Assembly (NCBI GenBank): GCA_905182645.1
Contig: CAJJCJ010000008.1
Span: 62,001 to 126,000, forward strand
Direction: 5' to 3'
Length of the DNA: 64,000 nt
Source of the DNA: an uncultured Sulfitobacter sp.
Lineage (GTDB): Bacteria > Pseudomonadota > Alphaproteobacteria > Rhodobacterales > Rhodobacteraceae
A model generated the notes under the pieces. It had not been told where the DNA came from and searched no databases. It was given only the letters and a program-made list of their open reading frames with translations. Below are positions 28,030-45,715 of this stretch, piece by piece. The position numbers and the translations under genes are program-made. Each line of letters begins with the position of its first letter. Position 1 is the first letter of the stretch.

Positions 28030-28131
28030 GGCAGTCCCCTTTGGCATTGTGGGGCTTTTAAGACAGTGGGACCATAAGGGGAAGGTGCAAGCCCTGTGTT
28101 TTTGGCATCAGTGCGCTGTGGACAGAAAAAT

Positions 28132-28151
28132 GCCGGGCACAAAGGCCCGGC
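28132..28151. terminator. GC-rich hairpin upstream of purL
   Basis: GCCGGGC (28132-28138) pairs with GCCCGGC (28145-28151) around a 6-base loop in the 280-base gap between purL and the LysR gene. No T-tract follows on either strand, so it may be a transcript-boundary or leader structure. Confidence 0.3.
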
Positions 28152-28178
28152 GAAGTCTAACAGGGAGGTAAGGAAGTG

Positions 28179-28253
28179 ATGAGCATTGAAGCATCATCGC
28201 ATTCAATTGATCATTTAGTGTGCGTTATATTCTCGTTCAAGAAGAAAACCTGA
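28179..28253 (+). CDS. possible 24-residue small ORF with strong ribosome binding site
   Basis: GGGAGG at 28163-28168, 10 bases before ATG 28179, precedes a frame of 24 residues (MSIEASSHSIDHLVCVIFSF, then a KKKT end) closed by TGA at 28251-28253. An in-frame GTG at 28176 is an alternative start. The middle is hydrophobic and the end basic, so a tiny membrane-associated peptide is possible. No homology is recognised; the only support is the ribosome binding site. Confidence 0.3.
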   Translation: MSIEASSHSIDHLVCVIFSFKKKT

Positions 28254-28308
28254 ATCTGTGCGCAAGCCCGATATGCGCCAGGTGCATGGCTGCTTATTAG
28301 TTGCAGTA

Positions 28309-29214
28309 TTATGGAGCATTTGCCTCGCGCAGTTTGCGTCGGTGGGCAATGATTTCATCTTGAACAAAGTCACGGAATGCGCTGATCCGTTTTGATTGCC
28401 TCAGCTCTTCTGGATAGGCAAGGAATACGGGGACTTCAGCAGATTCGACCTCTGGCATAACGCGCACAAGATCGGGGAAGTCCTCGGTCACATAATCGGG
28501 CAAGATTCCAATGCCCAGATTATTCAACACGCCTTGCAGCACACCAAAGTAGTTGTTGACCGTAAACAGGCTCGGCACGTCGTAGGTTAAGAGATGTTGC
28601 ACAAGCGAGGAGCCCGCAGCGACCTGCGCGGATGACAGACTTTGACAAATCAACCTATGTTTGCTGATGTCTTCCATGACCGTCATGGTACCGTTCTGTT
28701 CCATATACTTTTGCGTCGCATAAAGGCGCATGCGCACGGTCATCAGTTTCTTTCGGATCAGGTCGGCCTGCGACGGTTCTTTCATGCGGATGGCGATGTC
28801 GGCTTCCCGCATCGGCAAATCGAGAACACGCTCTTCGAGCATCAAATCGATCTTAAGGTCAGGATATTTTTCGTACAGCTTTGGCAGTCGCGGAGCGAGC
28901 CAGAGCGTGCCGAACCCAGTTGTGGTTGTGACGCGCAATTCGCCAAATACTTCTTCTTCACTGTCTTTGATCCGCGCGGATGCCGCCTCGAGGCGCTTGT
29001 TCATCGATTTGGTGGCGTCGAACAACAGCTCGCCTTGTTCGGTCAGGATGAGACCACGGGCGTGTCGGTGAAATAAAGTGGCGTTAAACGATTCTTCAAG
29101 CGCGCGGATTTGCCGGCTAACGGCGGATTGTGAAAGGTGTAGTGTATCACCGGCGTGTGTCAGGCTGCCGGCGTCGGCGACCGCGTGAAATATTCTTAGC
29201 TTATCCCAATCCAT
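28309..29214 (-). CDS. LysR-family transcriptional regulator
   Basis: A 301-residue LysR regulator starting MDWDKLRIFHAVADAGSLTHAGDTLHLSQSAVSRQIRALEE, with the helix-turn-helix in the first 60 residues and the periplasmic-binding-protein-like effector domain after residue 90 (VTTTTGFGTLWLAPRLPKLY). It is divergent from the indolepyruvate ferredoxin oxidoreductase gene with 156 bases between the start codons, so control of that gene is possible. Effector unknown. Confidence 0.87.
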   Translation of the reverse strand: MDWDKLRIFHAVADAGSLTHAGDTLHLSQSAVSRQIRALEESFNATLFHRHARGLILTEQGELLFDATKSMNKRLEAASARIKDSEEEVFGELRVTTTTGFGTLWLAPRLPKLYEKYPDLKIDLMLEERVLDLPMREADIAIRMKEPSQADLIRKKLMTVRMRLYATQKYMEQNGTMTVMEDISKHRLICQSLSSAQVAAGSSLVQHLLTYDVPSLFTVNNYFGVLQGVLNNLGIGILPDYVTEDFPDLVRVMPEVESAEVPVFLAYPEELRQSKRISAFRDFVQDEIIAHRRKLREANAP

Positions 29215-29370
29215 GACGTCCCTCTTTCCACACTGTTACCGCTCGCATTGATTGATCATTACGTCAATGGGCAGGTGTGTTGCAAATGAATGTTCATGTC
29301 ATATTTTGTTTGTAGGTCAGAAATTATGACCTATACTGATCATGAAGTATTCGCCAAGGGGAGGTGCCGC

Positions 29371-32300
29371 ATGGCCCGTCAAGATGTCTCGCTGCATGAC
29401 AAATACGACCTAACGAAGACCGAAGTTTTGCTGAACGGTACGCAGGCGTTGGTCCGATTGATGTTGATGCAGCGCGCACGTGATGCAGCAGCGGGCCTAA
29501 ATACGGCCGGGTATGTGACGGGATATCGCGGGTCGCCTTTGGGTGCTGTGGATATGCAGATGAAACGGGCCGCCAAGGATTTGGATGCAGCGCAAGTTAC
29601 GTTTCAGCTTGGGTTGAACGAGGATCTGGCAGCGACCGCGCTGTGGGGCAGTCAACAAGCGGAGCTGCGCGGTGAAGGCAAATACGATGGCGTTTTCGGC
29701 TTATGGTACGGTAAGGGGCCGGGCGTTGATCGGTCTGGGGACGTGATGCGGCATGCAAATATGGCTGGCACATCGCCCCATGGTGGCGTGATCATGGCGA
29801 TGGGTGATGATCATACCGGCGAAAGCTCGACGACTTTGCATCAATCTGATTTCGCGATGCTGGACGCATATATGCCGATCGTGTCCCCTGCTGGGGTCCA
29901 AGAGATTTTGGATTACGGGCAATATGCGTGGGCGTTGTCACGATTCGCGGGCGTTTGGGTTGGCCTGAAAACCATGAAAGACACAATTGAGGTTACGTCT
30001 GTTGTTGATGCTGATCCGCACCGAATGCAGTTTATAGAACCCACATTTGATATGCCGGACGGTGGGCTGAATATTCGGCTGGTGGATACCCCGCAATTGC
30101 AAGAGGCGCGGATGATTGACCACAAACGGTTCGCTGCAGAGGCGTTCAGCCGCGCAAACCGGATGGATCAACGTAAATGGGGCAAGGCAGGCGCGCGAAT
30201 TGGCTTTGTGGCTGCGGGCAAAAACTGGCTTGATTTGACCCATGCCTTATCGCTTTTGGGGTTAAGCGAGGCCGATGCGGCGCAGATGGGGATTACGGCC
30301 TATAAGGTTGGGCAAGTTTGGCCATTGGACATGATGTCATTTCATGATTGGGCCGAGGGGCTTGATCTGATCGTTGTCGTGGAGGAAAAGCGAAAGCTTA
30401 TTGAGGTGCAGGTCAAAGAAGCGCTATTCGATGACCGCGCAGGTCGCCGTGTTTACGGCTGGCATAAAGGTGACGAGCATTCTGAGGGCCGCCGCGAAGA
30501 GATATTTCCGACAAAAGCAGATTTGAATCCGATTTGGATTGCGGAAAAAATCGGCGGCATTTTGGTTGAAGAAGGCTGTGCCGCGGCCAGTGTGACAGAT
30601 GGATTGGCTGCCTTGGCGGCCGCGCGCAGGGCCGATAATGCCCCAGAATTGGCTGCCAGAACACCGTTCTTTTGTTCTGGTTGCCCGCATAATTCGTCAA
30701 CCAAAGTACCCGAGGGCAGCCGTGCCTATGCGGGAATTGGCTGCCATTATATGGTGCAGTGGATGGACCGCGACACTGTTGGTTTTACGCAAATGGGCGG
30801 CGAGGGTGCAAATTGGGTTGGCGAGGCGCCGTTTAGTACACGCGGCCATGTGTTTCAGAACTTGGGCGATGGTACCTATAACCATTCTGGTGTTCAGGCT
30901 ATTAGATTTGCGCTGATGGCAGGCACAAATATTACCTACAAAATCCTGTTTAACGACGCGGTTGCGATGACGGGCGGCCAAGGCAATGACGGCGGATTGA
31001 CCGCAGATCAAATTTGTCGTGAGTTGCTTGCAATGGGTGTTAAAAACGTCGCGTTAGTTTATGATAATAAAGAAGAAATTGACTTTGGATTGTTTCCATC
31101 TGACATTTCACGGGACGAGCGTGACCAACTTCCGTTGGTTCAGGATAAGTTGAGTAAAACCAAAAGTGTATCGGCCATTGTTTATGTCCAAACTTGTGCG
31201 GCTGAAAAACGCAGGCGACGTAAGCGGGACCAATTCCCCGACCCAGACCGCAGGGTTTTTATTAACACCGATGTTTGTGAAGGATGTGGCGATTGCGGTG
31301 TGCAGTCAAACTGCGTTTCGATTGTTCCTGTCGAGACTGAACTAGGACGCAAGCGTGCGATTGATCAGTCTTCGTGTAATAAGGATTTTTCCTGCGTGAA
31401 CGGTTTCTGCCCGTCTTTTGTGACAATCGAGGGTGCAAAAATTCGCAAGTTCGCGACGTCAGCGATTGAGCTGCCGGACCTACCTGACGCGGTTTTGCCA
31501 ACCATAAACGGAACCCACAATGTGGTCATTACCGGCGTTGGCGGCACGGGCGTTGTGACCATTGGTGCCGTGATGGCGATGGCCGCGCATTTGGATGGCA
31601 AAGGCGCGGGCATGATGGAGATGGCCGGACTCGCTCAGAAGGGTGGCGCCGTTCACATCCACTGCCGTATTGCAGAGAAGCCAACCGATATTGCGGCTAT
31701 ACGCGTGTCCACAGGTGAATGTGATACGTTAATCGGTGGCGATCTGGTCGTCAGCGCTGGCGCAAAAACGATCGGCCTTATGCGCACGGGACGGACGCGC
31801 GGAGTTGTGAATACCCATGAGATACTTACTGGGGAGTTTACGCGGAATACGGAATTTAGGCTTCCGATGGATCAGTTGCGGATGTCGTTGGAGGCGCGGC
31901 TTAGTGATCGCTTGGCAATGTTTGATGCATCAAAGCTGGCGCAAGAGCTGTTGGGCGACAGTATTTATTCAAATATGATGGTGTTTGGAGCTGCTTGGCA
32001 ACAAGGAGGGGTTCCCATTTCGTACGACGCAATTGCATGCGCGATTGAATTGAATGGGGCCTCGGTTACGCAAAATTTGGCGGCGTTTGCATATGGCCGT
32101 TGGGCCGTCTTGGATCCAGATGATGCGGCAGAAATTTCTGGTGCCAAAAATGTGCAAGCACCCAAGTCCGTTGATGAAATTATCGCGTTTTGCGCCGATC
32201 AATTGACCGCGTATCAAGGGCCAAAGTTGGCGCAGTCGTATCTTGATTTTGTTGCCCGTTTTGATGACGCCGAGTTGCAGGAGGCCGTGGCAAGATCGTA

Positions 32301-32748
32301 CCACAAGCTGCTGTCATATAAGGATGAATATGAAGTTGCCCGTTTGTTAACACAGACCAAGCACCAAGCCGAGGCGGCGTTTGATGGCGACTTAAAGCTA
32401 TCGTTCCATTTGGCGCCGCCGATTTTGTCAAAGACGGGACCAGATGGTCGCCCAGTCAAACGCATATTTGGCCCAATGATTGCGCGAATGTTCCCCTTGC
32501 TTGCACGGTTAAAGGTGTTGCGCGGGACCCCGTTTGATTTATTTGGCTATAGCGCCGAACGTAAAATGGAGCGTGCTTTGATCAGGCAATATGAAACAGA
32601 TATGAAGCGCGTTTTGGCCGGCGAAATTGTCGGTGGAACTGCGACTGCTCTTGCACACTTGCCAATGGACATTCGTGGGTTTGGACCGGTTAAGGGTGCG
32701 GCTGTGAAAAAAGTGGCATTGAAACGCGATGCTTTGCTTGCGGCGTAA
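29371..32748 (+). CDS. indolepyruvate ferredoxin oxidoreductase, fused alpha-gamma type
   Basis: ATG 29371 is chosen because GGGGAGG at 29358-29364 precedes it; an in-frame start at 29290 would swallow that site. The 1125-residue protein joins what are separate subunits in archaea. It has an N-terminal pyrimidine-type domain (GYVTGYRGSPLGAVDMQM), a thiamine-diphosphate domain with FCSGCPHNSSTKVP and GGEGANWVGEAPF, a cysteine-rich stretch CEGCGDCGVQSNC then CNKDFSCVNGFCPSF able to bind an iron-sulphur cluster, and a gamma domain opening with VVITGVGGTGVVTIGAVMAMAA. It oxidatively decarboxylates aryl- or branched-chain 2-oxoacids to acyl-CoA. Length and architecture are normal for the family. 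Confidence 0.92.
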   Translation: MARQDVSLHDKYDLTKTEVLLNGTQALVRLMLMQRARDAAAGLNTAGYVTGYRGSPLGAVDMQMKRAAKDLDAAQVTFQLGLNEDLAATALWGSQQAELRGEGKYDGVFGLWYGKGPGVDRSGDVMRHANMAGTSPHGGVIMAMGDDHTGESSTTLHQSDFAMLDAYMPIVSPAGVQEILDYGQYAWALSRFAGVWVGLKTMKDTIEVTSVVDADPHRMQFIEPTFDMPDGGLNIRLVDTPQLQEARMIDHKRFAAEAFSRANRMDQRKWGKAGARIGFVAAGKNWLDLTHALSLLGLSEADAAQMGITAYKVGQVWPLDMMSFHDWAEGLDLIVVVEEKRKLIEVQVKEALFDDRAGRRVYGWHKGDEHSEGRREEIFPTKADLNPIWIAEKIGGILVEEGCAAASVTDGLAALAAARRADNAPELAARTPFFCSGCPHNSSTKVPEGSRAYAGIGCHYMVQWMDRDTVGFTQMGGEGANWVGEAPFSTRGHVFQNLGDGTYNHSGVQAIRFALMAGTNITYKILFNDAVAMTGGQGNDGGLTADQICRELLAMGVKNVALVYDNKEEIDFGLFPSDISRDERDQLPLVQDKLSKTKSVSAIVYVQTCAAEKRRRRKRDQFPDPDRRVFINTDVCEGCGDCGVQSNCVSIVPVETELGRKRAIDQSSCNKDFSCVNGFCPSFVTIEGAKIRKFATSAIELPDLPDAVLPTINGTHNVVITGVGGTGVVTIGAVMAMAAHLDGKGAGMMEMAGLAQKGGAVHIHCRIAEKPTDIAAIRVSTGECDTLIGGDLVVSAGAKTIGLMRTGRTRGVVNTHEILTGEFTRNTEFRLPMDQLRMSLEARLSDRLAMFDASKLAQELLGDSIYSNMMVFGAAWQQGGVPISYDAIACAIELNGASVTQNLAAFAYGRWAVLDPDDAAEISGAKNVQAPKSVDEIIAFCADQLTAYQGPKLAQSYLDFVARFDDAELQEAVARSYHKLLSYKDEYEVARLLTQTKHQAEAAFDGDLKLSFHLAPPILSKTGPDGRPVKRIFGPMIARMFPLLARLKVLRGTPFDLFGYSAERKMERALIRQYETDMKRVLAGEIVGGTATALAHLPMDIRGFGPVKGAAVKKVALKRDALLAA

Positions 32749-32820
32749 TGTGACATAAATCTCCACTACACGCGGTCGGCAAAGCAAGGTACACACGACC
32801 TAACAACGAGGGGAGCCGAG

Positions 32821-33633
32821 ATGGCAGTCGGGATTTTTGATAGTGGGTTAGGCGGCCTGACGGTTTTAGACGCTGTGCAAAAACGCCTGCCGGACGTGCC
32901 GTTTGTGTATTTGGGTGACAGCGCGCATGCGCCTTACGGCGTGCGTACGCCCGACGATATCTATAATTTGACCACTGCTGCGACCGAACGTTTGTTTGAT
33001 GCTGGATGCGATTTGGTGATCTTGGCTTGTAACACGGCAAGTGCTGCGGCGCTGCGCCGGATGCAAGAAAGCTGGGTCCCAACTGATAAGCGCGTGCTAG
33101 GTGTGTTTGTGCCTTTGATTGAGGCGTTGACCGAACGCGAATGGGGCGATAATTCTCCGCCGCGTGAGGTTGCAGTAAAACATGTCGCGCTGTTTGCCAC
33201 GCCATCCACGGTTAGCAGCCGTGCATTTCAGCGCGAATTGGCGTTTCGTGCGATCGGCGTGGATGTCGAAGCGCAGGCTTGCGGCGGTGTGGTTGATGCC
33301 ATTGAGGATGGCGATTTGATCTTGGCAGAGGCCTTGGTTCGGAGCCACGTTGATGCGTTAAAGCGCAAGATGCCGCATCCAGATGCCGCACTTTTGGGCT
33401 GTACCCATTATCCGTTGATGGAAGGTATATTTCAGGATGCGCTTGGTACGGACGTTAAGGTCTATAGCCAAGCGGATCTGGTGACAGAGAGCTTAGCCGA
33501 TTATTTGGGTCGCCGCCCTGAGATGGTCGGACCTGGTAAGGCAAGTGCATTTTTGACGACGGGCGATCCCAAACAAGTGTCATCGCGTGCGACGCAATTC
33601 TTGCGACGTCAGATCACATTTGAATCCGCTTAA
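32821..33633 (+). CDS. murI: glutamate racemase
   Basis: Supplies D-glutamate for peptidoglycan. The 270-residue protein has both catalytic cysteines in their usual context: [12 protein letters not shown] (about residue 64) and [15 protein letters not shown] (about residue 195). The start reads [19 protein letters not shown], with [14 protein letters not shown] following. GAGGGGAG precedes the ATG. It is 37 bases upstream of argC and likely in one transcript with it. Confidence 0.95.
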
Positions 33634-33670
33634 TAACTCCCCATATTAATCCTGATTAAAGGATACCGAC

Positions 33671-34699
33671 ATGATCCATAACATCGCCATTCTTGGGGCT
33701 TCTGGCTATACGGGCGCCGAATTGGTGCGTTTGATCGTCACCCATCCGTCGCTAAAAATAACCGCACTTTCGGGTAATTCCAAGGCGGGCATGACAATGG
33801 CGCAGGTATACCCACATCTGCGGCACCTTGATTTGCCTGTCTTGACCAAAATCGAAGATGTAGATTTTTCTGATATCGATCTGGTGTTTTGCGCGCTGCC
33901 ACATGCCACGTCGCAGGCGGTGATTTCGACGTTGCCACCGCATGTGAAAATCGTTGATTTGTCCGCTGATTTCCGGCTCCGCTGCACGGCAGCATATCGC
34001 AAGTGGTACGGGCAAGATCATTCGGCGCCTGAATTACAGAAACAAGCGGTTTACGGCCTGACGGAATTTTACCGTGACGATATTCGGACTGCCCGTTTGG
34101 TTGCGGGCACGGGATGTAATGCTGCGGCAGGACAGTTTGCATTGCGGCCATTGATCGCCGCGGGTGTGATTGATCTGGACCGGATCGTGATCGATCTGAA
34201 AGCGGCCGTATCTGGGGCAGGGCGTGCATTAAAAGAAAACCTGCTGCACGCCGAGTTGTCGGAAAACCTGCACGGCTATGCCGTCGGTGGCACGCACCGC
34301 CACTTGGGCGAGTTTGATCAGGAGTTTTCGCAGGTTGCGGGTCGCGATGTGCGCGTACAGTTCACGCCACATCTTATACCCGCCAACCGCGGCATTCTGG
34401 CGACTGTGTATGTTGATGGGGATGCGGGTGTTATTCACCAGACGCTTCTCGACGCTTATGATGTTGAGCCGTTTATAGTGGTCCTTCCTAAGGGCGAAGT
34501 TCCCGCGATTAAGCATGTGCGCGCCAGTAATTTCTGCCACATTGGCGTTGTTGCTGATCGGATTTATGGGAGGGCAATCGTGATCGTGACGCTTGATAAT
34601 TTGACTAAAGGGTCGTCTGGCCAAGCGCTGCAAAATGCGAATTTGATGTTGGGGCTTGATGAAACTGCGGGCTTGATGATGGCACCAGTTTACCCATGA
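33671..34699 (+). CDS. argC: N-acetyl-gamma-glutamyl-phosphate reductase
   Basis: Reduces N-acetylglutamyl phosphate to the semialdehyde with NADPH in arginine synthesis. The 342-residue protein begins [21 protein letters not shown] (Rossmann GxxGxxG), has the catalytic cysteine in [18 protein letters not shown] (about residue 150), and the conserved [13 protein letters not shown]. The end, [29 protein letters not shown], is also standard. AAAGGA precedes the ATG. The 263 bases after it up to the endolysin remnant show no convincing gene. Confidence 0.96.
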
Positions 34700-34962
34700 A
34701 GGGCCTTAAAAAGAGACGCCGCATTCAGGTTAACGTGGTTTCCCTTTTCGACAGATATGGTTCGCATCATTGGGAAAGTATGCCTGGTGAGATGCGCGAT
34801 ATAGGTTATTGAAAAACCATAAATATTAGGAAATATACATGCCCAATGAAGTCACCGACGCGATGAAAAAAACTAGACGTTTGCTTGACGCCGGACGGTG
34901 CTGACGCGACCAATTAACCATTTGGCAGACATGATCCTATCATCTGATAGGGAAGTGTCGCG

Positions 34963-35564
34963 ATGCAAACGGTTACCCAAATTGCCAAAGATATTCTTGC
35001 CCGCGAGGGCGGGTATGTGAATGATCCCGACGACCCCGGATGGGCGACCAATCACGGTGTGACGGTTCACACAATGCGCCGCCTTGGCCTTGACCTGACT
35101 GGCGATGGGATCGTGGACAACGAAGATGTGCAGGTTTTGGACGTGGCGCGCGTGCTACAGATATTTATAGATCACTATTTCCGAGGGCCGGGCTTGGACG
35201 GTTTGCCGATCGCATTGCAGCCATCAGTTTTTGATATGTATGTCAACGCGGGCAACAACGCGATCAAGGTGTTGTAGCGGTTGCTGAATCAGTCGTGACT
35301 GTGGATGGCGCGCTTGGACCTTTGACGATCGTTGCAACGACGCAGGCTATGGCCGCAGCACCGGATTATTTGGCTGATGCCTACGGCATTGCGCGGCGCA
35401 ATTATTATTACCGCTTGGCCGATGGCCGTGCGGCGAGTCGCAAGTATGCCCGCAAGCGAGACGGTGGCAAGGGCGGCTGGATTGTCCGCGCAGAAGCGTT
35501 CATAGCGCCGCGCTATCATTTTACCGAACACCAGCACACAGCGAGAACGGCATCATGGGGATAA
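34963..35564 (+). pseudogene. GTA-type N-acetylmuramidase (endolysin, GH108 family), broken
   Basis: Cleaves peptidoglycan during phage or gene-transfer-agent release. The first part (34963-35277) holds the GH108 N-terminus AKDILAREGGYVNDPDDPGWATNHGVT with the catalytic glutamate of REGG, then PSVFDMYVNAGNNAIKVL and a TAG stop. The C-terminal part continues in another frame from about 35270: VTVDGALGPLTIVATTQAM, YGIARRNYYYRLADGRAASRKYARKRDGGKGGWIVRAEAFI, ending at 35564. One lost base near 35262-35290 joins the two. The pieces together (about 200 residues) match the holin-associated muramidase of Rhodobacterales, and the next gene is the holin. A Gly to Trp change in the usual DDPGGAT motif is a further oddity. 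Confidence 0.8.
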
Positions 35565-36058
35565 TCGGACAAATCATGTCAGCCATTTTTGGTGGAGGCC
35601 GCAATGTTGTGGCTGAGACGGTTCAAGTTTTTAGTGAAAATGCTGAAAACGGCGCCGTACGTGATGCCGATGCAAAGACGGCGGCATTGACCCAGCTTGC
35701 CACTGAATTTGGTCATGCCCGCCAAGGATGGTTTAACCGTTTCATCGACGGGCTCAATAGGCTGCCGCGTCCGATGCTTGCGCTGGGTACGATTGGTTTG
35801 TTTGTTTCCGCCATGGCTGATCCTGTGTGGTTCGCGGAACGGATGGTCGGTGTGACCGCAGTGCCCGAGCCATTATGGTGGTTGATGGGTGCGATTGTGA
35901 GCTTTTATTTCGGTGCCCGACATCAAGTTAAAGGTCAAAATTTCCAGCGCGAGATAGCACAAACGGAGAATGTTTTAACCACCGCTGCATCAGTTCAACC
36001 GGATATCGACGCGACCGACAATGCCGCTTTGGCAGATTGGCAGGCCGGCCGTGGATGA
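35555..36058 (+). CDS. GTA-type holin with 3 membrane segments
   Basis: A 167-residue protein of the three-transmembrane holin family found with Rhodobacter-type gene transfer agents. It has a small hydrophobic start (MGIIGQIMSAIFGGG), an amphipathic region rich in Ala/Glu, then membrane helices near RPMLALGTIGLFVSAMADP and EPLWWLMGAIVSFYFGARHQ. The tail is acidic and soluble. It would form the lesions that let the endolysin reach the wall. The start overlaps the end of the endolysin remnant by 10 bases, and the stop overlaps the next small gene by 8. It appears intact while the endolysin is not. Confidence 0.82.
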   Translation: MGIIGQIMSAIFGGGRNVVAETVQVFSENAENGAVRDADAKTAALTQLATEFGHARQGWFNRFIDGLNRLPRPMLALGTIGLFVSAMADPVWFAERMVGVTAVPEPLWWLMGAIVSFYFGARHQVKGQNFQREIAQTENVLTTAASVQPDIDATDNAALADWQAGRG

Positions 36059-36245
36059 TTTTGAGATAGACAGACGCGTCACCGCGTTAGAAACCCGCAA
36101 CGCTGTTGACGAAGTACACCGCACCAATGTCGGTGTGCGTTTGGCTGCGATTGAAGAGACATTGCGCTGGCTGGTACGGTTGATTATCGGCGGTCTGTTG
36201 ATGGCAGGGCTGACCTATGCGGTGCAAGTAGGGTTAATGATCTAA
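36051..36245 (+). CDS. small coiled-coil plus membrane-anchor protein (XhlA-like shape)
   Basis: GTG 36051, overlapping the holin stop, opens a 64-residue frame: a charged heptad-like N-terminus (FEIDRRVTALETRNAVDEVH, IEETLRWLVR) followed by one hydrophobic helix (LIIGGLLMAGLTYAVQVGLM) and a stop. This layout resembles XhlA-type lysis-accessory proteins, and the position in a holin cassette fits. The longer upstream frame at 36021 lies within the holin gene and is ignored. No homology beyond the shape is claimed. Confidence 0.6.
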   Translation: MDDFEIDRRVTALETRNAVDEVHRTNVGVRLAAIEETLRWLVRLIIGGLLMAGLTYAVQVGLMI

Positions 36246-36308
36246 GCTGCAGTAAGTTGCGCGCAAGCAGTTAGTTTGAGCCGCGAGCCGATGCACTATC
36301 CTTCGCCT

Positions 36309-37040
36309 ATGATGTCTGAACTTGGACGTTTTGCGCTGATTTTGGGTGCCGTGATTGGGCACAGCAACTGATGGCATTGTGAGCTTGTTGCGCCACTCTG
36401 GTCAGCTTTTTCTATGCATGCCCGCATTGAGGGGCGCGTTGATGCCGTGTGAGTCCGCACCGTGGACACTTGCGGCTTGGGTGACATGATGATTGGTATC
36501 GCGCTTGGGTCTTGACCGACTTATTGCGAGTTCGGTTCGGGTGGCTTTTGGTTCCGGATTTCTGGTGTAAACGCATCGTTCATAGCGTGGTCGATCGAGG
36601 CCGCTTTGCTGCATCAGATTGTCGTTGTTTTGAAACGCTGAACAGTTTTGTTGGCCGATTTGGGGCTTGAGTTTTTCTGTGGGGGCGCCCAATGTCCTAC
36701 GCAGCGTCCTCAAGTTTTTCACGCCTTCGCCATCGATCTTGAACGCTGCGTGGTCATCCCGATCATTGCGGTATTTTCACAGGTCGAGCATTGGGCCTTT
36801 TTGCAACGCATTCTGTGCAGCTTTATCGAAGGATGTGTGGAAGGCCATGAGCCGTCGGAGTGGCAATATTTTGAAGAACATCTAACTGGCGGTCAGGCTG
36901 TGATACAGGGTACTGATTGGGGCAAGTTTTTTGCGTACACTGGGGTGGATATTGCCACTTTGGGTCGCAGCTATCGCCGCTTGGCGCCAATGTCCGCGCC
37001 AGACGTAGCGATCCGCAACGGTGTGGTGTGCTATATCTAA
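36309..37040 (+). pseudogene. ccmF: decayed ccmF (haem lyase of cytochrome c maturation), internally deleted
   Basis: CcmF is the large membrane haem lyase (about 650 residues) of the system I cytochrome c pathway. Only scraps remain in about 730 bases. The start MMSELGRFALILGAVIG (36309) resembles the CcmF N-terminus and stops at 36369. In the frame through 36540 the reading GSGGFWFRISGVNASFIAW, then EAALLH, corresponds to the WWD-domain signature GWGGWWFWDPVENASFMPW...ALLH, now with changed tryptophans. A TGA follows and then TVLLADLGLEFF. HAFAIDLERCVVI matches the HAFANDPERG segment, and DIATLGRSYRRLAPMSAPDVAIRNGVV matches the C-terminal periplasmic PERRxYPVxxMPTTEAAIRNG region. Most membrane segments are missing. 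The match is by eye but recurs in the right order. Confidence 0.72.
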
Positions 37041-37044
37041 GTTG

Positions 37045-37290
37045 TGATTGGTGAACGTCTTGTTTGCGGGGGACAGCCGTGACGAAGCCGTATTGTATCT
37101 TGTGCGTCGTTACGCGGAGTTCATTTTGTTGAAGCCGGACGTCGTGGGTATGAACTGGGTGGCGGCACATGCGATGTTTCAATTGGCATTAGGTGCAGGT
37201 TGGGGCGCTGTACGGTGCAAATCTGATGCCGTTGGCGCGAGCTTAACCGGCGATGAACAAAGCCGTTTGAACCGAATTTTGAAAAACTGA
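37045..37290 (+). pseudogene. ccmH: C-terminal remnant of ccmH
   Basis: CcmH is the membrane-anchored thioredoxin-like partner that reduces apocytochrome c. The frame reads VNVLFAGDSRDEAVLYLVRRYAEFILLKPD, matching the CcmH segment RERLVAGDSDAEVLDYVVxRYGDFVLLKPP. A hydrophobic anchor (AAHAMFQLALGAGWGAV) and the closing LTGDEQSRLNRILKN follow, as in the family. The whole N-terminal part with the signal peptide and the CxxC (LxCxxCQN) active site is gone; the frame runs straight on from the ccmF remnant. Family length is about 150 residues, here about 80. The order ccmF, ccmH, enoyl-CoA hydratase is normal in Rhodobacteraceae (recollection), which supports the reading. Confidence 0.72.
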
Positions 37291-37358
37291 CGTGCCGCTG
37301 TGCTTTTCAAGCTAACGGAAAAGTATAGGGTTAATGCGAACAGTAAAGGATCGCGCAC

Positions 37359-38135
37359 ATGGACTATCAGGAAATTACCCTAAAGATTACAAACGGGGTT
37401 GGCGTTATTACGTTGAACCGGCCTGAGGTTATGAATGCGCTGAATTCAAAAATGCGTTTTGAGATCACAAATGCGATCAAAACCGCGGAGTCAAATGCGC
37501 GCGTCGTTGTGTTGACAGGCGCAGGACGGTCATTTTGTTCTGGCCAAGACCTCGCGGATGGCGGTTCAGCGGCAATATTGGATTTAGAAGCCACATTGCG
37601 CGACGAATATGTCCCGATGCTCAAGGCGATCTTTGACTGCAAAGTGCCGACAATTGCAGCGGTCAATGGTCCCGCTGCGGGGGCCGGGGCGAACCTTGCG
37701 TTGGCCGCCGACGTTGTGATCGCGTCCCATGACGCGTTTTTCTTACAGGCGTTTACGCGGATCGGACTTATCCCTGATGCTGGAGGCACTTATTGGTTGC
37801 CGCGCCAGATTGGTGCCGCTCGTGCGATGGGGGCTGCGTTATTTGCGGATAAAGTATCAGCCGAGCAAGCTGTTGCGTGGGGCATGATCTATGAAGCCAA
37901 ACCGGCGGACGAATTTGACGCCCATTGGCGCGCGCGCGCGGATGCATTGGCGCTGGGGCCAACGACCACGTACCACCACCTAAAGACTGCTATCCGAGGG
38001 TCGTTTGAAAATACGCTTGATGAACAATTGGCACTCGAGGCAAAATTGCAGGGCAAATGCGGTGATACCCATGATTTCAAAGAAGGTGTTATGGCCTTTT
38101 TGGAAAAACGTCCCGCAAAATTTGAAGGTCACTAA
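37359..38135 (+). CDS. enoyl-CoA hydratase/isomerase (PaaG-like)
   Basis: A 258-residue crotonase-fold protein. Motifs: GVITLNRPEVMNALNSKMRFE, the oxyanion-hole segment FCSGQDLADGG, AVNGPAAGAGANLALAADVVIAS, and RIGLIPDAGGTYWLPRQIGAARA. The Asp in PDAGG and the overall wording are closest to the PaaG (2-(1,2-epoxyphenyl)acetyl-CoA isomerase) branch, but no other phenylacetate genes are present. AAAGGA lies before the ATG. It appears intact although the genes immediately upstream are ruined. Confidence 0.85.
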   Translation: MDYQEITLKITNGVGVITLNRPEVMNALNSKMRFEITNAIKTAESNARVVVLTGAGRSFCSGQDLADGGSAAILDLEATLRDEYVPMLKAIFDCKVPTIAAVNGPAAGAGANLALAADVVIASHDAFFLQAFTRIGLIPDAGGTYWLPRQIGAARAMGAALFADKVSAEQAVAWGMIYEAKPADEFDAHWRARADALALGPTTTYHHLKTAIRGSFENTLDEQLALEAKLQGKCGDTHDFKEGVMAFLEKRPAKFEGH

Positions 38136-38308
38136 AATAAGTATGCGATCAATACCTGATTCGTTACGGGCAAAAGCCTGCTTGTCCGCTTGATGAAGTG
38201 GGACAATTTGCGCAAGCCGTTTGTTGATGATTGCTGCGGACAAAAAACAAATTGAACAACAGTGCGTAGGACCAATCGGTTTGTTTTAGGCATCATCGGG
38301 ACCGCATG

Positions 38309-38337
38309 AAAAGGGCCGCCTTGGCGGCTACCCTTTG
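38309..38337 (-). terminator. intrinsic terminator after gltA
   Basis: AAAGGG and CCGCC (38310-38320) pair with GGCGG and CCCTTT (38323-38336), a long interrupted stem next to the gltA stop codon. The run of A on the plus strand becomes a T tract on the minus strand. Confidence 0.65.
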
Positions 38338-38340
38338 AGT

Positions 38341-39636
38341 TTAGCGCTTTTCGATATCAACGTAGTCGCGGGCGGTCTCGCCAAGGTAAAGTTGACGGGG
38401 ACGGCCGATTTTCAGCTGTGGATCTGCAAGTTGTTCTTTCCACTGCGAAATCCAACCAACAGTTCGTGCCATCGCAAAGATTGGCGTGAACATTGACGTT
38501 GGGAAGCCCATCGCTTCAAGGATTATGCCGGAATAGAAATCCACATTCGGGAATAGCTTTTTCTCAGCGAAGTATGGATCAGCGAGAGCCTGCTTTTCCA
38601 ATTCCATCGCGACTTGCAGTAGTGGGTTATTTGCAACGCCCAGAAGTTCCAAAACTTCATCCGCAGATTGCTTTAGCACAGTCGCACGGGGGTCGAAGTT
38701 CTTATAAACGCGGTGGCCAAATCCCATCAGGCGATAATTGTCGTTCTTATCTTTTGCGCGCGCGATGAATTCAGGAATGCGGTCGACGGTGCCTATTTCC
38801 TTAAGCATTTCAAGGCATGCCTGGTTTGCGCCACCGTGAGCAGGGCCCCATAGGCATGCGATGCCTGCCGCGATACACGCAAATGGGTTCGCGCCGGATG
38901 ATGATGCCAGACGCACAGTTGATGTCGATGCGTTTTGCTCGTGGTCCGCGTGAAGCGTGAAAATGCGGTCCATTGCGCGGGCCAAGATTGGGTTCACATT
39001 GTATTCTTCTGCAGGGACCGAGAAACACATGTTCAAGAAGTTGGCGGCATAATCCAAATCATTGCGAGGATACACAAATGGCTGTCCGATGGAGTATTTA
39101 TAAGCCATCGCAGCAATTGTTGGCATTTTGGCAATCAGGCGGATCGAAGCGACCTCGCGCTGATGCGCATCATTGATATCGGTGGAATCGTGGTAAAATG
39201 CGGACATTGCGCCCACCACGCCAACCATAGTGGCCATCGGCGGCGCGTCGCGTCGGAAACCACGGAAAAAATTGTGCATCTGCTCGTGGATCATGGTGTG
39301 ACGTGTGACAAGCGCCTCGAAGTTTTCCAACTGATCCGCGTCAGGCAATTCCCCGTAAAGCAGGACATAACATACTTCGAGATAATGAGATTCGCCTGCC
39401 AATTGTTCGATTGTATAGCCGCGGTGCAATAGCTCGCCCTTATCACCATCGATAAAGGTGATTGTGCTGTCGCACGCAGCTGTCGACGTGAACCCTGGAT
39501 CATATGTGAATACACCCGCTTGCCCGTAAAGCTTGCGGATGTCGATGACATCTGGGCCGGCAGTGGGTGAATGCATGGGTAATTCGTAGGACTGACCATC
39601 AATTGTCAGCGTTGCAGTTTTTTGCGTCTCAGCCAT
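38341..39636 (-). CDS. gltA: citrate synthase
   Basis: Condenses oxaloacetate and acetyl-CoA at the entry of the TCA cycle. ATG 39636 is preferred because GGGGA lies 8 bases upstream; an ATG two codons earlier (39642) is too close to it. The 431-residue protein is the hexameric Gram-negative type: N-terminal domain with [44 protein letters not shown] (catalytic His), [16 protein letters not shown] (His), [15 protein letters not shown], and [17 protein letters not shown] carrying the catalytic Asp. It ends at a terminator and follows gltX on the same strand with a 96-base gap. Confidence 0.97.
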
Positions 39637-39732
39637 ATTCATTCCCCAAAATAAGCTGCGTACCTTCTGGACACGCAGTCATAGTCATCTCGCCCAAGTT
39701 TTGAGTTAACGCATAAACGTCACCAAATGGTT

Positions 39733-41136
39733 TCAGGCGGTGCTTTCAGTCAATCGAGCGCAAGTTTCGTCGCGTCCAAGGACCAACATCATATCGAAAA
39801 CACTTGGAGAAACAGATCGTCCCGCAAGGGCTGCGCGTAGCGGCCCCGCAAGCTTACCAAGTTTCGTGTCGTGGCGTGCAGCCAGTTCCGAAACGACACC
39901 CTCCAGAGCATCACGGTCCCAGCTAACATTTTGCAGCTGCGGCGTCAATTCCAACAGTATACTACGGGATACATCTGTTAAAAGTGCGCGCGCCTTTTCG
40001 TCACGATCCAAAGGACGGTTGGTCAGAATAAAGTGTGCTTTTTCAATAAGATCAGGGAATGTCTTCGCGCGTTCTTTAAGGCAATACATTGCGCTCAAAA
40101 GACCAGCTTTTTGTGTCGCAGTCAGTGCATCTGCTTTGGTTGCCGCGAGGTAATTTTGCAATTCATGCAGCAGCGCAGCATCTTTTGCGACGGCATTCTG
40201 CTGTCCGCAGATGTTTTCCAGCTTTTTGGTATCAAACCGCGCTGGCGATTTGCCAACACCGCTAAGATCAAACCAATCGCGGGCCTGTGAATCCGAGAAA
40301 AACTCGTCATCGCCGTGGCTCCAACCTAGACGGGCCAAATAGTTGCGCATACCAGCGGCCGGATATCCCATCGCCTGATATTCGGCGGCGCCAGTCGCGC
40401 CGTGGCGTTTCGACAGTTTTTTACCGTCGGGTCCGAAAATAAGCGGAATATGCGCCAGCACGGGTTTGTTCCAGCTCATGGCGTCATAAATCAGGTTCTG
40501 ACGAAATGCGTTGGCCAAATGGTCATCGCCGCGGATTACATGTGTCACGCCCATGTCATGGTCATCGACGACAACTGCGAGCATATAAACCGGTGACCCG
40601 TCAGACCGGAGTAAAATCATGTCATCAAGCTGATCATTTGCCCATGTTACGTCGCCTTGAACCTCGTCATGCAAGGTTGTGGACCCTTCGCGCGGAGCCT
40701 TTACACGGACAACAAACGGCAGGTCTGGATGATCCGCTGTTGCCGTGTCACGCCAAGGAGAGCGGTAAAGCGTTGACGTTTTATTGGCGCGGGCGTCTTC
40801 GCGGAAGGTTTCAATCTCTTCTTGGGTAGCAAAACATTTGTACGCACTGCCGTCCGCCAGCATTTTGTTGGCGACTTCGGCATGGCGCGCAGCATTGGCA
40901 TGCTGGCTAGTCGGGTCGCCGTCCCAGTCAAGGCCAAGCCACGTTAAACCGTCCAGGATTGCTTGACGGTTTTCAGGAGTTGAACGCGTTTGGTCGGTGT
41001 CTTCAATACGCAGCAAGAATTTACCACCGCGCCCGCGCGCATAAAGCCAATTAAACAAGGCTGTCCGCGCACCACCAATGTGCAACGCACCGGTGGGAGA
41101 CGGCGCAAATCGGGTGACAATTGGCGTTTGTGACAT
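39733..41136 (-). CDS. gltX: glutamyl-tRNA synthetase
   Basis: Class I synthetase of 467 residues. The HIGH-type signature is [24 protein letters not shown] at the N-terminus; the KMSKS-type signature is KLSKRHG (about residue 242). [33 protein letters not shown] is also standard. No damage is visible. The gene is divergent from comEC, with 93 bases between the start codons. Confidence 0.96.
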
Positions 41137-41229
41137 GGGAAAGACCTCTCGTTAACCACTTGTTCATCAAAGTTGATGAAACATGACGGGTGGTGTGAGG
41201 GAGATACTAAGCGCGGAGGCAAGTGACAA

Positions 41230-43295
41230 GTGCGCGCATTTCAAAGGCTTGAGACGCAGCTTTTGGCGCAACGGGGACATCTGTTCTGCTGGGTCCCAGT
41301 TTGTTTGGGGATCGGAATTGGTGGATACTTTGCGCTTCGGTTTGAACCGGATGTAATGATGTTTCTTGGGCTTGGATGCCTTCTGGCGCTTGGGCTCATC
41401 TTAGCGCGCATTGTGCGCGTGGCCTTTGCGCCGTTGCTCGTCGGCTTGGTTTTGATTGGGGCGGGGGCGGGGATCGCAAAATACCGCACAGAGGGTGTCA
41501 GCAGTCCCGTGCTTGGATTCCGGTATTACGGCGCAATCGAGGGGCGGATTATCAATATTGACCGGTCAGGCAGCGATGCCGTGCGGTTGACGTTGGACCG
41601 CGTCATTTTGAACCGAATGTCGCCCAATCGGACGCCAAGCAAGGTCAGGGTATCAGTGCACGACGATGGTCGGTCCGCGCCGTATCGACCCGGTGATGCG
41701 ATTATGACGACGGGACACCTTTCACCGCCCTCTGGACCGGCGGAACCGGGCGGCTTTGATTTTCAACGGCATGCATGGTTTTTGCAAATAGGCGCGGTGG
41801 GTTACACCCGTAACCCAGTTGTGCGAATTGCCGTTGCTGATGATTATGATGGGTGGCGATTGTGGATTTTCCAACAACGACGAACCCTTGCCAAGGCGGT
41901 GCGTGATCAAATCGCAGGTGAATCAGGTGCCTTTGCGGCGGCGATCATGACGGGCGACCGATCTGCGATGTCTCAGGCCACGATTGCCGATCTACGCGCG
42001 ACAAACTTGGCGCATTTACTTGCTATATCTGGTCTCCATATGGGGCTGCTCACCGGATTTGTCTTTGCTGTGGTTCGGATGGGGTTGGCCCTTATACCTG
42101 CGTTTGCATTGCGATTTGCGACCAAGAAAATTGCAGCGGTCGTGGCACTGGTGATCGGTGCAGGTTACCTAGCGTTATCGGGAGGTAACGTGGCGACAGA
42201 GCGGGCGTATATTATGGTGGCAGTGATGTTAATCGCAGTGTTGTTGGACCGGCGGGCGTTGACGTTACGTGCGGTCGCGATGGCGGCGACTCTGGTTTTG
42301 ATTTTGCAGCCAGAGGCATTGGTTGGACCGGGTTTTCAGATGTCGTTTGCAGCGACGACCGCATTGGTACTGGTCTTTGGTGGGATGCGGTATGTGGATA
42401 TGTCGCGGCTTCCAAAATGGGTGCGGATTGTCTTTTCGGTCGTGCTGTCGTCGGCGGTTGCTGGGTTTGCGACTGCGCCTTTCGCCGCGGCCCATTTCAA
42501 TCAGATTGCACATTTTGGACTTCTAGCCAATGTTTTGAGCGTCCCTTTGATGGGCATTGTCGTCATGCCAGCAGCGGTCCTTGCGGTCTGCCTTGCACCC
42601 CTTTGGCTTTGGGGCGTCGGGCTATGGTTTGTTGATCAAGGCTTGCAGTGGATTTTGTTCGTCGCGGGGAAAGTGGCAAGTATCGAAGGCGGTGTCGGGC
42701 ATGTTGTGTCGCCATCTGCTTTGGTTTTGCCAATATTGGGGATCGGCCTAATCTGGGTCGCGTTGTGGCAAGGTCGTGGGCGATTGGTTGGTGGGGTTGG
42801 CGTATTTTTTGCGTTCTTTCTTTGGGCTCAGACCACACGACCTACCGCCTTTTAGTGGCCGATAGCGGAGCATTGATCGGCTTGATGGGTGCAGGTGGAC
42901 GTGCCCTTTCACGCGCTAAAGGCAGCGGGTTTGTTGCGGGGGTATGGTTGGAAAACGACGGCGCTCCGATTGCTCAGATGGATGCTGCAGCAAAGGGCGG
43001 ATTTGATCGGCAGGGCAGACAAATCGCATTCTACCTTGGCGATTGGCACATAATAGCGGTCACCGGAAAAACGGCGCTTGCTGCGCTGATAGGTTGTGGC
43101 GGCGCGGATATATTAATCAGCAACCAAACCGTGCAAAATCAGCGCCCATGCCGCGTCGTTGATGTCATATCTCTTCGGAGAACTGGCGCGCTTGCATTTG
43201 ACCTATCCGCCGATGGTGACTTGATAACAACGACGGCAAGGCAAGTCGCGGGGCAGCGCCCTTGGGCGCCGCGATCGCGACAAGCCGTGCCCTAA
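41230..43295 (+). pseudogene. comEC: ComEC/Rec2 DNA-uptake channel gene with a one-base frameshift
   Basis: ComEC forms the inner-membrane channel for DNA uptake in transformation. From GTG 41230 (GGAGG at 41215-41219) the first 541 residues hold the N-terminal DUF4131 domain and the polytopic Competence domain (NLAHLLAISGLHMGLLTGFVFA). The frame stops at 42855 after LWAQTTRPTAF. The family C-terminus continues in the neighbouring frame, LLVADSGALIGLMGAGGRALSRAKGSGFVAGVWLENDG, to 43295. A single missing base close to the TTTT run at 42850-42853 explains this; restored length is about 688 residues. Loss of the soluble C-terminal domain may cripple the channel. A homopolymer error is a serious alternative. 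Confidence 0.83.
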
Positions 43296-43310
43296 AAACT
43301 AGCTCGTCGT

Positions 43311-44000
43311 TCAAGAGTAGGTCCGGATAAGGCCGACAAGACGGCCCTGCACCTTAACCTGATCATCGCGGTAGATCTGCGTGGTCAAGGCCGCGTTTGC
43401 CGGTTCTAATGCGATTGTCGAGCCGGTCTGACGGAACCGTTTCAACGTCGCTTCTTCGTCTTCTACTAGCGCTACAACGATATCGCCGTTGCTTGCCACA
43501 GTGGATTCGCGAATAACAACGATGTCACCATCATTGATGCCCGCCTCGATCATCGAGTCGCCGCGCACTTCCAATGCATAGTGTTCGCCTTTACCCAACA
43601 TCGTCTGCGGGACAGCGACGTTGTGCGATATTTCGGAAATTGCCGCGATCGGCGTACCAGCAGCAATGCGCCCCATAACGGGCAGTTCAACCGAGGCGCT
43701 TTCGACAGGCAGGGCAGATGGTGGTGTGCTGTCGGGACGGTCTCCTTCAATAACGCGCGGGGTAAATCCGGTTTTGCCTTGCAATGCATCGGGCAACTTT
43801 ACGATCTCAAGTGCGCGGGCCCTATGTGCCAAACGCCGGATAAAGCCGCGTTCCTCGAGCGCCGTAATCAGACGGTGGATGCCAGACTTAGAGCGTAAAT
43901 CTAACGCATCTTTCATTTCATCAAAAGATGGTGGCACCCCATCGCGCTGCACGCGCTTATGGATGAATTCTAACAGGTCGAGTTGTTTTTTCGTTAGCAT
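43311..44000 (-). CDS. lexA: SOS repressor LexA
   Basis: Represses DNA-damage genes and cleaves itself when RecA is activated. The 229-residue protein has the LexA helix-turn-helix ([40 protein letters not shown]), a cleavage site Ala-Gly in [11 protein letters not shown], the catalytic serine in [12 protein letters not shown] and lysine in [10 protein letters not shown] LexA box (44036-44050) precedes it. The length is typical of alphaproteobacteria. It is the last gene of the leftward trp-moa run but has its own SOS promoter. Confidence 0.96.
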
Positions 44001-44035
44001 GTTCCGCTCCAGTCATTCTGACACGTTTTGCGTAT

Positions 44036-44050
44036 GTTCTACGCATGTTC
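44036..44050. promoter_or_regulatory. LexA (SOS) box upstream of lexA
   Basis: GTTC (44036-44039), seven bases (TACGCAT), GTTC (44047-44050): an exact direct-repeat GTTC-N7-GTTC LexA box, in the 72-base gap between moeA and lexA. It implies self-regulation of lexA. Confidence 0.85.
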
Positions 44051-44072
44051 TCGTTTTGTGTCAACTCTGGCG

Positions 44073-45239
44073 TCAGATATCAATAATTTCGAGCAATTCA
44101 CCAGGATGTCGTGCACCGTCGTTCGGGGGGCGGACGGCAAAGCAATTGGCCTGCGACAGCACTGAGAGAAGGGCGCTGTCTTGACGGTCATAGACGCGTA
44201 ATCCTTCTTTATTGATATGTGCCCGCATATAATGTTCGCGCGGCCCGTTGGGGCCAAGCGCTGTTAACAGTGTTGCTGTGCGACGTGGTGTGGCCACGGC
44301 CTCAAAGCCAAGCATTTTACGGATAACTGGTAAGACAAAGATATGCCCGCACACCATTGCCGAAACAGGATTGCCTGGCAGGCCGATCATGACAGAACTG
44401 CCGATTGCGCCGGCCATCAACGGCTTACCGGGCCGCATGGCGACTTTGTAAAATGCACGATCCATGCCTTTGGTTTCGGCCACTTGCCCGACCAAGTCGT
44501 GATCGCCCACCGATGCGCCGCCGATGGTGATAATAAGGTCTGCATCTGCCGCCAAATCGAAAGCCAGATCTAGCGAAGGTGCCGTGTCACGTGCAATTGG
44601 CAATAGCCGCGCGTCCGCGCCGTTTGCATCGAGCAAGGCCGCTAGCCCGTAACTGTTGGATGCGATGATTTGGGCTGCGTTGGGGGTTTCACCGGGTTGC
44701 ACCAACTCGTCACCAGTTGCGATGATTGCCACAATCGGTTTGCGGGTCACAGGGACAAGCGCGATATTCATCGACGCAAGCAAAGCAATGTCTGACGCCG
44801 ATAGAACCCGTGGCCCGGTGAACAGTGTGCCGTTGGTGAAATCACCGCCTGCGGGTCGAATATGTGTGCCGGTATCGAGGCCTTCGCAAAGTGTGATGGT
44901 GTTGCCGGCGCGCGTGACATTTTCTTGGATGATCACACGGTCGGTACCTTTGGGAACGGGTGCGCCAGTGAATATCCGAACGGCGGTCCCCCGTGATACC
45001 ACGCCATCAAAGGCGTGGCCGGCGGCGGCTTCACCAATGACTGTGAATGACCCGCCCATGGCCGCATTGCAGACTGCGTATCCATCCATTGCAGAAGCCG
45101 CAAATGGAGGCTGGTCGCGGTTGGCGGTGACGGTGTGTGCTAAGGTGCGACCTGCGGCGTGGCGCAGTGGCACATCTTCGGATGGTAGGGCGCCTACAAG
45201 GTCAAAAAGATGCGCAAGCGCTTGGGCTGTCGAAATCAT
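44073..45239 (-). CDS. moeA: molybdopterin molybdenumtransferase MoeA
   Basis: Inserts molybdenum into molybdopterin. The 388-residue product shows MoeA signatures: AMDGYAV (about residue 50), [65 protein letters not shown], and [15 protein letters not shown]. The start overlaps the moaC stop by 4 bases. It joins Moco synthesis to the trp operon; this linkage is common in alphaproteobacteria and probably a matter of operon inheritance. Confidence 0.95.
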
Positions 45240-45715
45240 TTATTTTCAAACCGACCGGATTTGCCACCGTCCTTTAATGTCACACGAATACCGCCGATTT
45301 CCATGTCCTTTTGTACAGCTTTCACCATGTCGTGCACAGTTAGGGCGGCTGTGGATACGGCGGTCAATGCTTCCATCTCGACACCCGTTTGACCGGTGGT
45401 TTTCACGGTGGCGCTTATCCGAACGCCGGGCAGCGTTGGATCGGGCGTAAGGTCCAAGGTCACTTTTGTAATCGGCAGCGGGTGGCAAAGCGGGATCAGT
45501 TCAGCCGTCTTTTTGGCGCCCATAATTCCCGCGAGCCGCGCAATTCCAAGCACGTCACCTTTTGTGGCACGACCCTCTGTGATCAATGCCAAAGTTTCAA
45601 GCGTCATGGTAATATGACCTTCGGCGACAGCTATCCGGTCGGTTACGGCCTTGTCTGACACATCAACCATGTGGGCCCGACCAGAAGCGTCAAAATGGGA
45701 AAGTTTATTGGCCAT
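45236..45715 (-). CDS. moaC: cyclic pyranopterin monophosphate synthase MoaC
   Basis: Completes cPMP formation from the 3',8-cyclo-GTP made by MoaA. The 159-residue protein begins [21 protein letters not shown] and has the conserved [52 protein letters not shown] and the active-site Lys/Asp region KDGGKSG. It shares one base with trpC and overlaps moeA by 4 bases. Confidence 0.96.

Follow-up and report, generated by a model that had tools for sequence, protein, structure and literature searches.

Remnants of native ccmE, ccmF and ccmH beside GTA lysis genes in a Sulfitobacter genome point to displacement by a second cytochrome c maturation set

The native ccmE, ccmF and ccmH genes of an uncultured Sulfitobacter sp. 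persist as remnants around GTA lysis genes, within a 64,000-nucleotide stretch of contig CAJJCJ010000008.1 (positions 62,001 to 126,000; hereafter the window), and an intact second ccm set, whose CcmF belongs to a separate clade, is present on contig C5 of the same assembly. Sister genomes carry both CcmF types, and substitutions in the decayed ccmF are relaxed. The remnants are very probably the product of xenologous displacement by the second ccm set, with in-place decay of native ccmE, ccmF and ccmH; such a displacement is best read as ordinary in kind and unusually well resolved. Xenologous gene displacement followed by pseudogenization is a general evolutionary pattern, and the present case resembles it in having an intact copy from another lineage, a resident copy decayed in place and relatives with both. 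It differs in that part of a multi-protein assembly line appears to have been swapped, the rest being native. No account of ccm displacement was found in the literature searched, most subscription journals lying outside its scope. The source assembly (G000) consists of 15 contigs with a total of 2.67 Mb and is 84% complete; contigs are named within each genome (C1-C5 and so on). G053 and G034 are sister genomes, G053 being the closest relative.

The native locus was defined by comparison with the best 80 of at least 584 enoyl-CoA hydratase matches in the genome collection, which are Yoonia, Loktanella and other Rhodobacteraceae. In a recount with the proteins of L007 (the native locus of G034, which stands for the native type in identity comparisons) as queries, the order ccmF-ccmH-ech was kept in 78 of these best 80 relatives, the exceptions being L057 and L074, and the full order argC-ccmE-endolysin-holin-ccmF-ccmH-ech in 63; those of the best 80 without the full order lie on short contigs or have different left neighbours. 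The ccmF and ccmH remnants of the window occupy the same positions, between the holin and ech (Table 1). Among the best ccmE, ccmF and ccmH matches of these 80 relatives the sole stop is in the ccmE match of a Rhodovulum bin (L058). The best ccmF piece at L029:2380-3837 matches from residue 165 on, and the ccmF of G054 is in two pieces with similar coordinates, so that L029 may belong to G054.

Table 1. Features of the native ccm locus and its surroundings in the window
Feature	Position	Strand	Remarks
argC	33671..34699	+	Intact; conserved left neighbour of native ccm locus; 94% identity to L007 argC
ccmE remnant	34696..34917	+	Aligned to G034; native gene 459 bp
GTA-type endolysin (holin-associated N-acetylmuramidase)	34963..35564	+	Interrupted
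GTA holin	35555..36058	+	Intact; PF11351 91.8 bits, cut-off 24.8
XhlA-like small membrane protein	36051..36245	+	Open frame; PF10779 30.3 bits, E 4.8e-7, below 34.7 cut-off
ccmF remnant	36309..37054	+	Start, WWD region, second periplasmic-His region and one late stretch retained
ccmH remnant	37064..37290	+	Only the C-terminal half retained; the CxxC-bearing N-terminal half deleted
Enoyl-CoA hydratase (ech)	37359..38135	+	Intact; conserved right neighbour

A preliminary description of the window had recognised a decayed ccmF-ccmH at 36309-37290, with scattered in-order matches to CcmF followed by CcmH, and the alignments bear this out: the ccmF pieces share one forward frame and ccmH lies in another. 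The frame at 37048-37287 matches the CcmH family (PF03918) at positions 64-143 only, with 38.4 bits against a cut-off of 25 (36.5 bits in the whole-genome search). The native ccmF of G053 aligns at the nucleotide level to 36408-36896 (68% identity, E 1.7e-43) and again to 36982-37054 (77% identity), and a tblastn search with the genome's own C5 CcmF places residues 207-340 at 36405-36779 (39% identity, E 2.6e-13), a match containing three in-frame stops. Profile matches to both genes had been anticipated in 36246-37300; CcmH exceeds its cut-off, and the 130-aa ORF at 36648-37040, taken alone, has no Pfam or NCBIfam family match, so that the identity of ccmF rests on alignment to relatives and not on a profile. 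In the quoted SYRRLAPMSAPDVAIRNG region the later part aligns clearly and the earlier part does not.

The stops and large deletions reported there are also present. The ccmF remnant has deletions, frameshifts and five in-frame stops between 36309 and 37055, and its place measures 746 bp, against a gene of about 2 kb in relatives; that of ccmH measures 227 bp, against 444 bp. The CxxC of CcmH has a role in the CcmFH holocytochrome c synthase. The WWD domain and histidines of CcmF are needed for the function of this synthase, according to the available part of PMC10746174. These features are altered or partly lost in the remnants, as had been supposed for the tryptophans and CxxC: the WWD core, GGFWFWDPVENASFMPW in L007, reads GGFWFRISGVNASFIAW in the window, the first periplasmic-His region of ccmF is deleted, and the half of CcmH with CxxC is gone. 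The interval first described was right in its limits, and the damage is wider than it, beginning at 34696 with a ccmE remnant that had been missed together with the endolysin. The parts of this gene that still align are some 45 bp at its start and some 95 bp at its end; about 240 bp between them are missing.

A TAG at 35275-35277 and, near 35292, a deletion of 10 bp break the endolysin, whose GH108 domain precedes the stop; the open relative in L007 passes the NF040573 cut-off. The sequence DPGG in the endolysins of two relatives (L007, L057) reads DPGW in the window. We take the endolysin and holin adjoining the remnants to be counterparts of rcc00555 and rcc00556. These are the putative lysozyme and holin of RcGTA in the accessible text of PMC3423380. 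The window differs in its interrupted endolysin. With a broken endolysin beside an intact holin, any GTA particles may be hindered in their release by lysis.

The intact genes of the second set lie on C5, where ccmD and ccmC stand on one strand and a fatty acid hydroxylase gene, ccmE, ccmF (a 683-aa frame), ccmG, ccmH and ccmI on the other. The C5 CcmC, D, E, F, G and I exceed NCBIfam cut-offs and C5 CcmH exceeds that of Pfam; CcmA, CcmB, CcmC and CcmG on C2, all in open frames, exceed NCBIfam cut-offs as well. CxxC and heme-binding His motifs carry meaning for Ccm function, and these, with WWD, can be read from the translations of C5 CcmE, CcmF, CcmG, CcmH and CcmI. Across the whole genome CcmE (PF03100) has one match over cut-off, at C5, and CcmH has two, the intact C5 copy and the window remnant; the C5 copies are the only full-length CcmF, CcmH and CcmE in the 84%-complete assembly, and CcmA and CcmB are found on C2 only. 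In terms of System I (CcmABCDEFGHI), the remnants go back to ccmE, ccmF and ccmH, and the C5 and C2 genes match models for CcmA, B, C, D, E, F/NrfE, DsbE, CcmH and CcmI over their cut-offs. The difference is that the remnants are broken and the working genes are divided between two contigs, with ccmA, B, C and G on C2 and ccmC-D and E-I on C5.

The earlier suggestion of another ccm set is supported: C5 carries ccmC-D and ccmE-F-G-H-I, C2 carries ccmA, B, C and G, and each gene passes its family cut-off; that the intact set has a different CcmF lineage had been overlooked. System II (CcsBA) as a replacement has no support, ResB staying below cut-off throughout the 84%-complete assembly (13.7 bits at best, against 24.6). 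Complete loss of cytochrome c maturation is ruled out by the intact set on C5 and C2. General loss of c-type cytochromes is ruled out by seven cytochrome c domains (PF00034) over cut-off, though cytochrome c1 (PF02167) has no match over cut-off in the 84%-complete assembly.

Cytochrome c1 is present in all four relatives tested, and its absence here may reflect an assembly gap or a loss. Since it is unseen, there is room for a reduced need for cytochromes c, and the demand for them might have fallen in a shrinking genome, the second set serving only the Sox cytochromes; the small assembly (2.67 Mb) and the broken endolysin would fit such a course. We nevertheless think this improbable. Four of the seven cytochrome c domains lie outside the sox region of C5, being on C3 and C4; the C2 copies of ccmA, B, C and G have open frames; and the roughly 16% of the genome that is missing is enough to conceal cytochrome c1.

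Upstream of the C5 ccm genes are SoxX, SoxY, SoxA, SoxB and SoxC, each over cut-off, together with a 5-aminolevulinate synthase gene and, where SoxD is expected, a cytochrome c, named by position. These sox genes, the synthase gene and the ccm set stand together at L196:7386-15885 and in L087. The C5 sulfur-oxidation region looks, on its gene content, as if it were a unit with its own heme and cytochrome supply. In G034, SoxC, SoxD and the synthase are in the matching place; the contig of G053 does not reach far enough to show this. Next to its second set G034 has a frameshifted ccmC remnant (L121:7175-7451), the opposite outcome for the extra ccmC; in the source genome both ccmC genes are open.

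The second set differs in lineage from the native one. Native (L007) and C5 proteins share 51% identity for CcmF, 46% for CcmH and 70% for CcmE, and the C2 and C5 copies share 76% for CcmC and 38% for CcmG. In a tree of 77 proteins, built on CcmF only by a quick search with SH-aLRT support and no bootstrap, the 38 C5-type rows fall on one side of a branch with SH-aLRT 100, and the 21 native rows, chosen from 83 nearer to the native query, fall on one side of another, also with SH-aLRT 100. The CcmF that would have replaced the native one thus lies outside the native clade, and C5-type CcmF branches amid CcmF from other alphaproteobacterial families; we infer that the second type is probably of horizontal origin. 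Identical C5-type CcmF in three genera (G183, G326, G336) points to recent transfer.

Plasmids of many roseobacters also carry the type. C5 CcmF matches 191 plasmid records, 75 with 60-80% identity and 116 with less than 60%. Among the 40 matches listed, 37 are Rhodobacterales, to judge from names we recognise; the other three are two Martelella records (77%) and one with the label Dysgonomonadaceae. The two plasmids read, Dinoroseobacter shibae pDSHI01 and Sulfitobacter mediterraneus P2, are both typed conjugative and carry ccmF-G-H-I, in the same order as C5 and with CcmF 74-75% identical to it, together with a heavy-metal ATPase, a multicopper oxidase and cytochromes c. They differ from the C5 set, which adjoins sox genes and includes ccmE, ccmC and ccmD, in having copper and metal gene neighbours and no ccmE annotated adjoining the module. 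The available portion of PMC4886583 names a cytochrome c biogenesis gene on pDSHI03 into which a transposon has inserted. An origin of the C5 cluster as a single block from outside the family is unsupported, ccmC (76%) and ccmE (70%) looking like ordinary Rhodobacteraceae genes, and the cluster may have been assembled inside the family. The sox clusters are conserved in roseobacters and their tree is similar to the species tree, as stated in the part of PMC10090131 available, so the C5 sox neighbours need not be foreign.

Within the genus, 54 of 55 other members sampled have a native-type CcmF match, types being assigned by CcmF identity alone (native-type, 50-53% to the C5 query). Seven of the 55 have the C5 type at 73% or more: G053 (98%), G034 (96%), G006, G007, G019, G020 and G048. 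G020 has, besides two C5-type copies, two fragments whose type is unclear; this case aside, the source genome is the only one in the genus sample with the C5 type and no native-type match. In G039 a 102-residue ccmF-like fragment with a TGA (G039:C1:78806-79111) lies alongside a full copy and is possibly another decaying extra copy. With the assembly 84% complete, another ccmF-ccmH could sit in the missing part, and a native-type pair relocated there could be the working one, the window locus being the copy left behind. Relocation does happen, Thioclava (L074) having a ccmF at native-type identity and none beside its ech. G034 and G053, however, have one native-type ccmF each, in place (open in G034), and we regard relocation in the source genome as very unlikely.

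Displacement followed by decay is further supported by the pattern of substitution. Window-specific changes in ccmF at 36430-36900 number 31/151, 38/155 and 37/114 at codon positions 1, 2 and 3, against 2/122, 1/118 and 22/99 for G053-specific changes in the same stretch; at positions 1 and 2 combined the counts are 69/306 and 3/240 (Fisher p 1e-15). Coding constraint on the ccmF remnant has thus been lost. Position 3 is somewhat more changed than positions 1 and 2 in the window ccmF (p 0.04), which points to constraint along part of the branch or to flaws in the alignment. The late ccmF piece, with few sites, has 7/23, 2/25 and 5/17 changes at positions 1, 2 and 3, and the short ccmH piece 16/132 at positions 1 and 2 and 9/47 at position 3 (p 0.23). 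The usual bias is seen in argC (21/649 at positions 1 and 2, 55/226 at position 3), the holin (20/301, 30/98) and ech (7/488, 18/178); for argC and the holin, where G053 has no sequence available, the ancestral base was that of G034 agreeing with an outgroup. The locus is dead, as the preliminary description held. Its "long ago" needs amending: ccmH is open in G053, as is native ccmF from residue 82 on, the contig edge lying inside the gene, and both the decay and the bulk of the drift would postdate the split from G053.

The 130-aa (36648-37040) and 80-aa (37048-37290) frames are both open, and either might be a new small membrane protein under selection. This is highly unlikely: substitutions are near uniform over codon positions, the 130-aa frame lacks a family match, and 28000-46000 contains 61 frames of 80 aa or more, real genes included. 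Assembly or sequencing errors, conceivable in an incomplete and fragmented assembly, can be dismissed with near certainty in view of the many separate deletions, stops and frameshifts, the 28% mid-ccmF divergence from G034 spread over all codon positions, and the intact flanking argC, holin and ech.

Displacement by the second set would have run as follows. Native ccmE, ccmF and ccmH of Rhodobacteraceae stand around GTA lysis genes, and the remnants would be their pseudogenes. An ancestor common to G053 and G034 would have had a second ccmE-F-G-H-I and an extra ccmC-D beside sox and 5-aminolevulinate synthase genes, and with both sets working either would have been dispensable; redundancy, we infer, permitted the loss of the native genes. 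In the source lineage native E, F and H would have acquired stops, frameshifts and deletions and would now be drifting. The second CcmE, CcmF, CcmG, CcmH and CcmI would be expected to complete cytochromes c, with heme exported via CcmA and CcmB of C2 in combination with the second set, so that a back half (CcmE-F-G-H-I) with a different CcmF lineage would work with CcmAB of the native set. The second set would then probably serve all cytochromes of the cell.

Beyond the genus, 38 of 394 family genomes, the source included, match C5 CcmF at 69% or more, and in 10 of these 38 nothing else matches at E 1e-100 or better, with at most three CcmF candidates scored per genome, so that a native copy could be missed. 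These are the source genome and G163, G186, G196, G207, G217, G268, G305, G361 and G443. G155 and G233, each with a single copy (65 and 64%), were set aside as unclear; in D. shibae DFL 12 (G132) the three copies scored of six candidates are all C5-type. Several C5-only genomes branch deep within the C5-type group, which is compatible with more than one number and timing of gains in them. Seven of the nine other C5-only genomes have the holin near ech without ccmF or ccmH (with unrelated frames between in G163); in G186 the native place is at a contig edge, and in G305 no other gene of the set is beside ech. D. shibae and G155 present the same picture as the seven, and G233 has argC, ccmE and ech without lysis genes. 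Phaeobacter sp. J2-8 (L057) has the C5 type only, with no ccmF-ccmH between holin and ech; its ccmE (L057:4242-4681) is frame-shifted, which could be real or an error.

At the native place ccmE is retained in six of the seven, aligning over nearly its full length with no stops; in G196 no ccmE is nearby. No ccmE relative was found with C5 or native queries in any of ten 12-kb stretches round other C5-type ccmF genes; in G000, G034 and G053 one is present beside the C5-type ccmF. This suggests, on one genome with clear ccmE loss, that ccmE is mostly kept where the module is without it and lost in the source genome, where the module has it. The ten stretches contain no sox gene, and nine have neither a sox gene nor a heavy-metal ATPase relative; weak matches are a heavy-metal ATPase in G007 (38%) and a multicopper oxidase in G163 (29%), and a link to client genes is confined to the two plasmids, genus member G007 and the sox-linked clade. 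The broader proposition, that a mobile CcmFGHI module repeatedly took over housekeeping maturation and that the native genes lost match the content of the module (F and H for a module without ccmE; E, F and H for one with it), seems to us evenly balanced, the restricted link to client genes and the single clear case of ccmE loss counting against it. Such a module would at first have travelled with genes for copper resistance or sulfur oxidation and supplied the cytochromes of those genes.

In this genome the old half of cytochrome c maturation has been caught mid-decay, and what looks like an ordinary remnant most likely records an exchange within a core assembly line. The same exchange seems to have taken place in some relatives, native ccmF-ccmH being gone and the C5 type present: nine other family genomes have C5-type CcmF only among their scored matches, and the native place of the cultured D. 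shibae is without ccmF-ccmH. Strains with the C5 type only are suited to testing the interchangeability of CcmFH partners. If repeated takeover by the module is true, the Rhodobacteraceae would offer a natural test of which Ccm components are exchangeable from one lineage to another.
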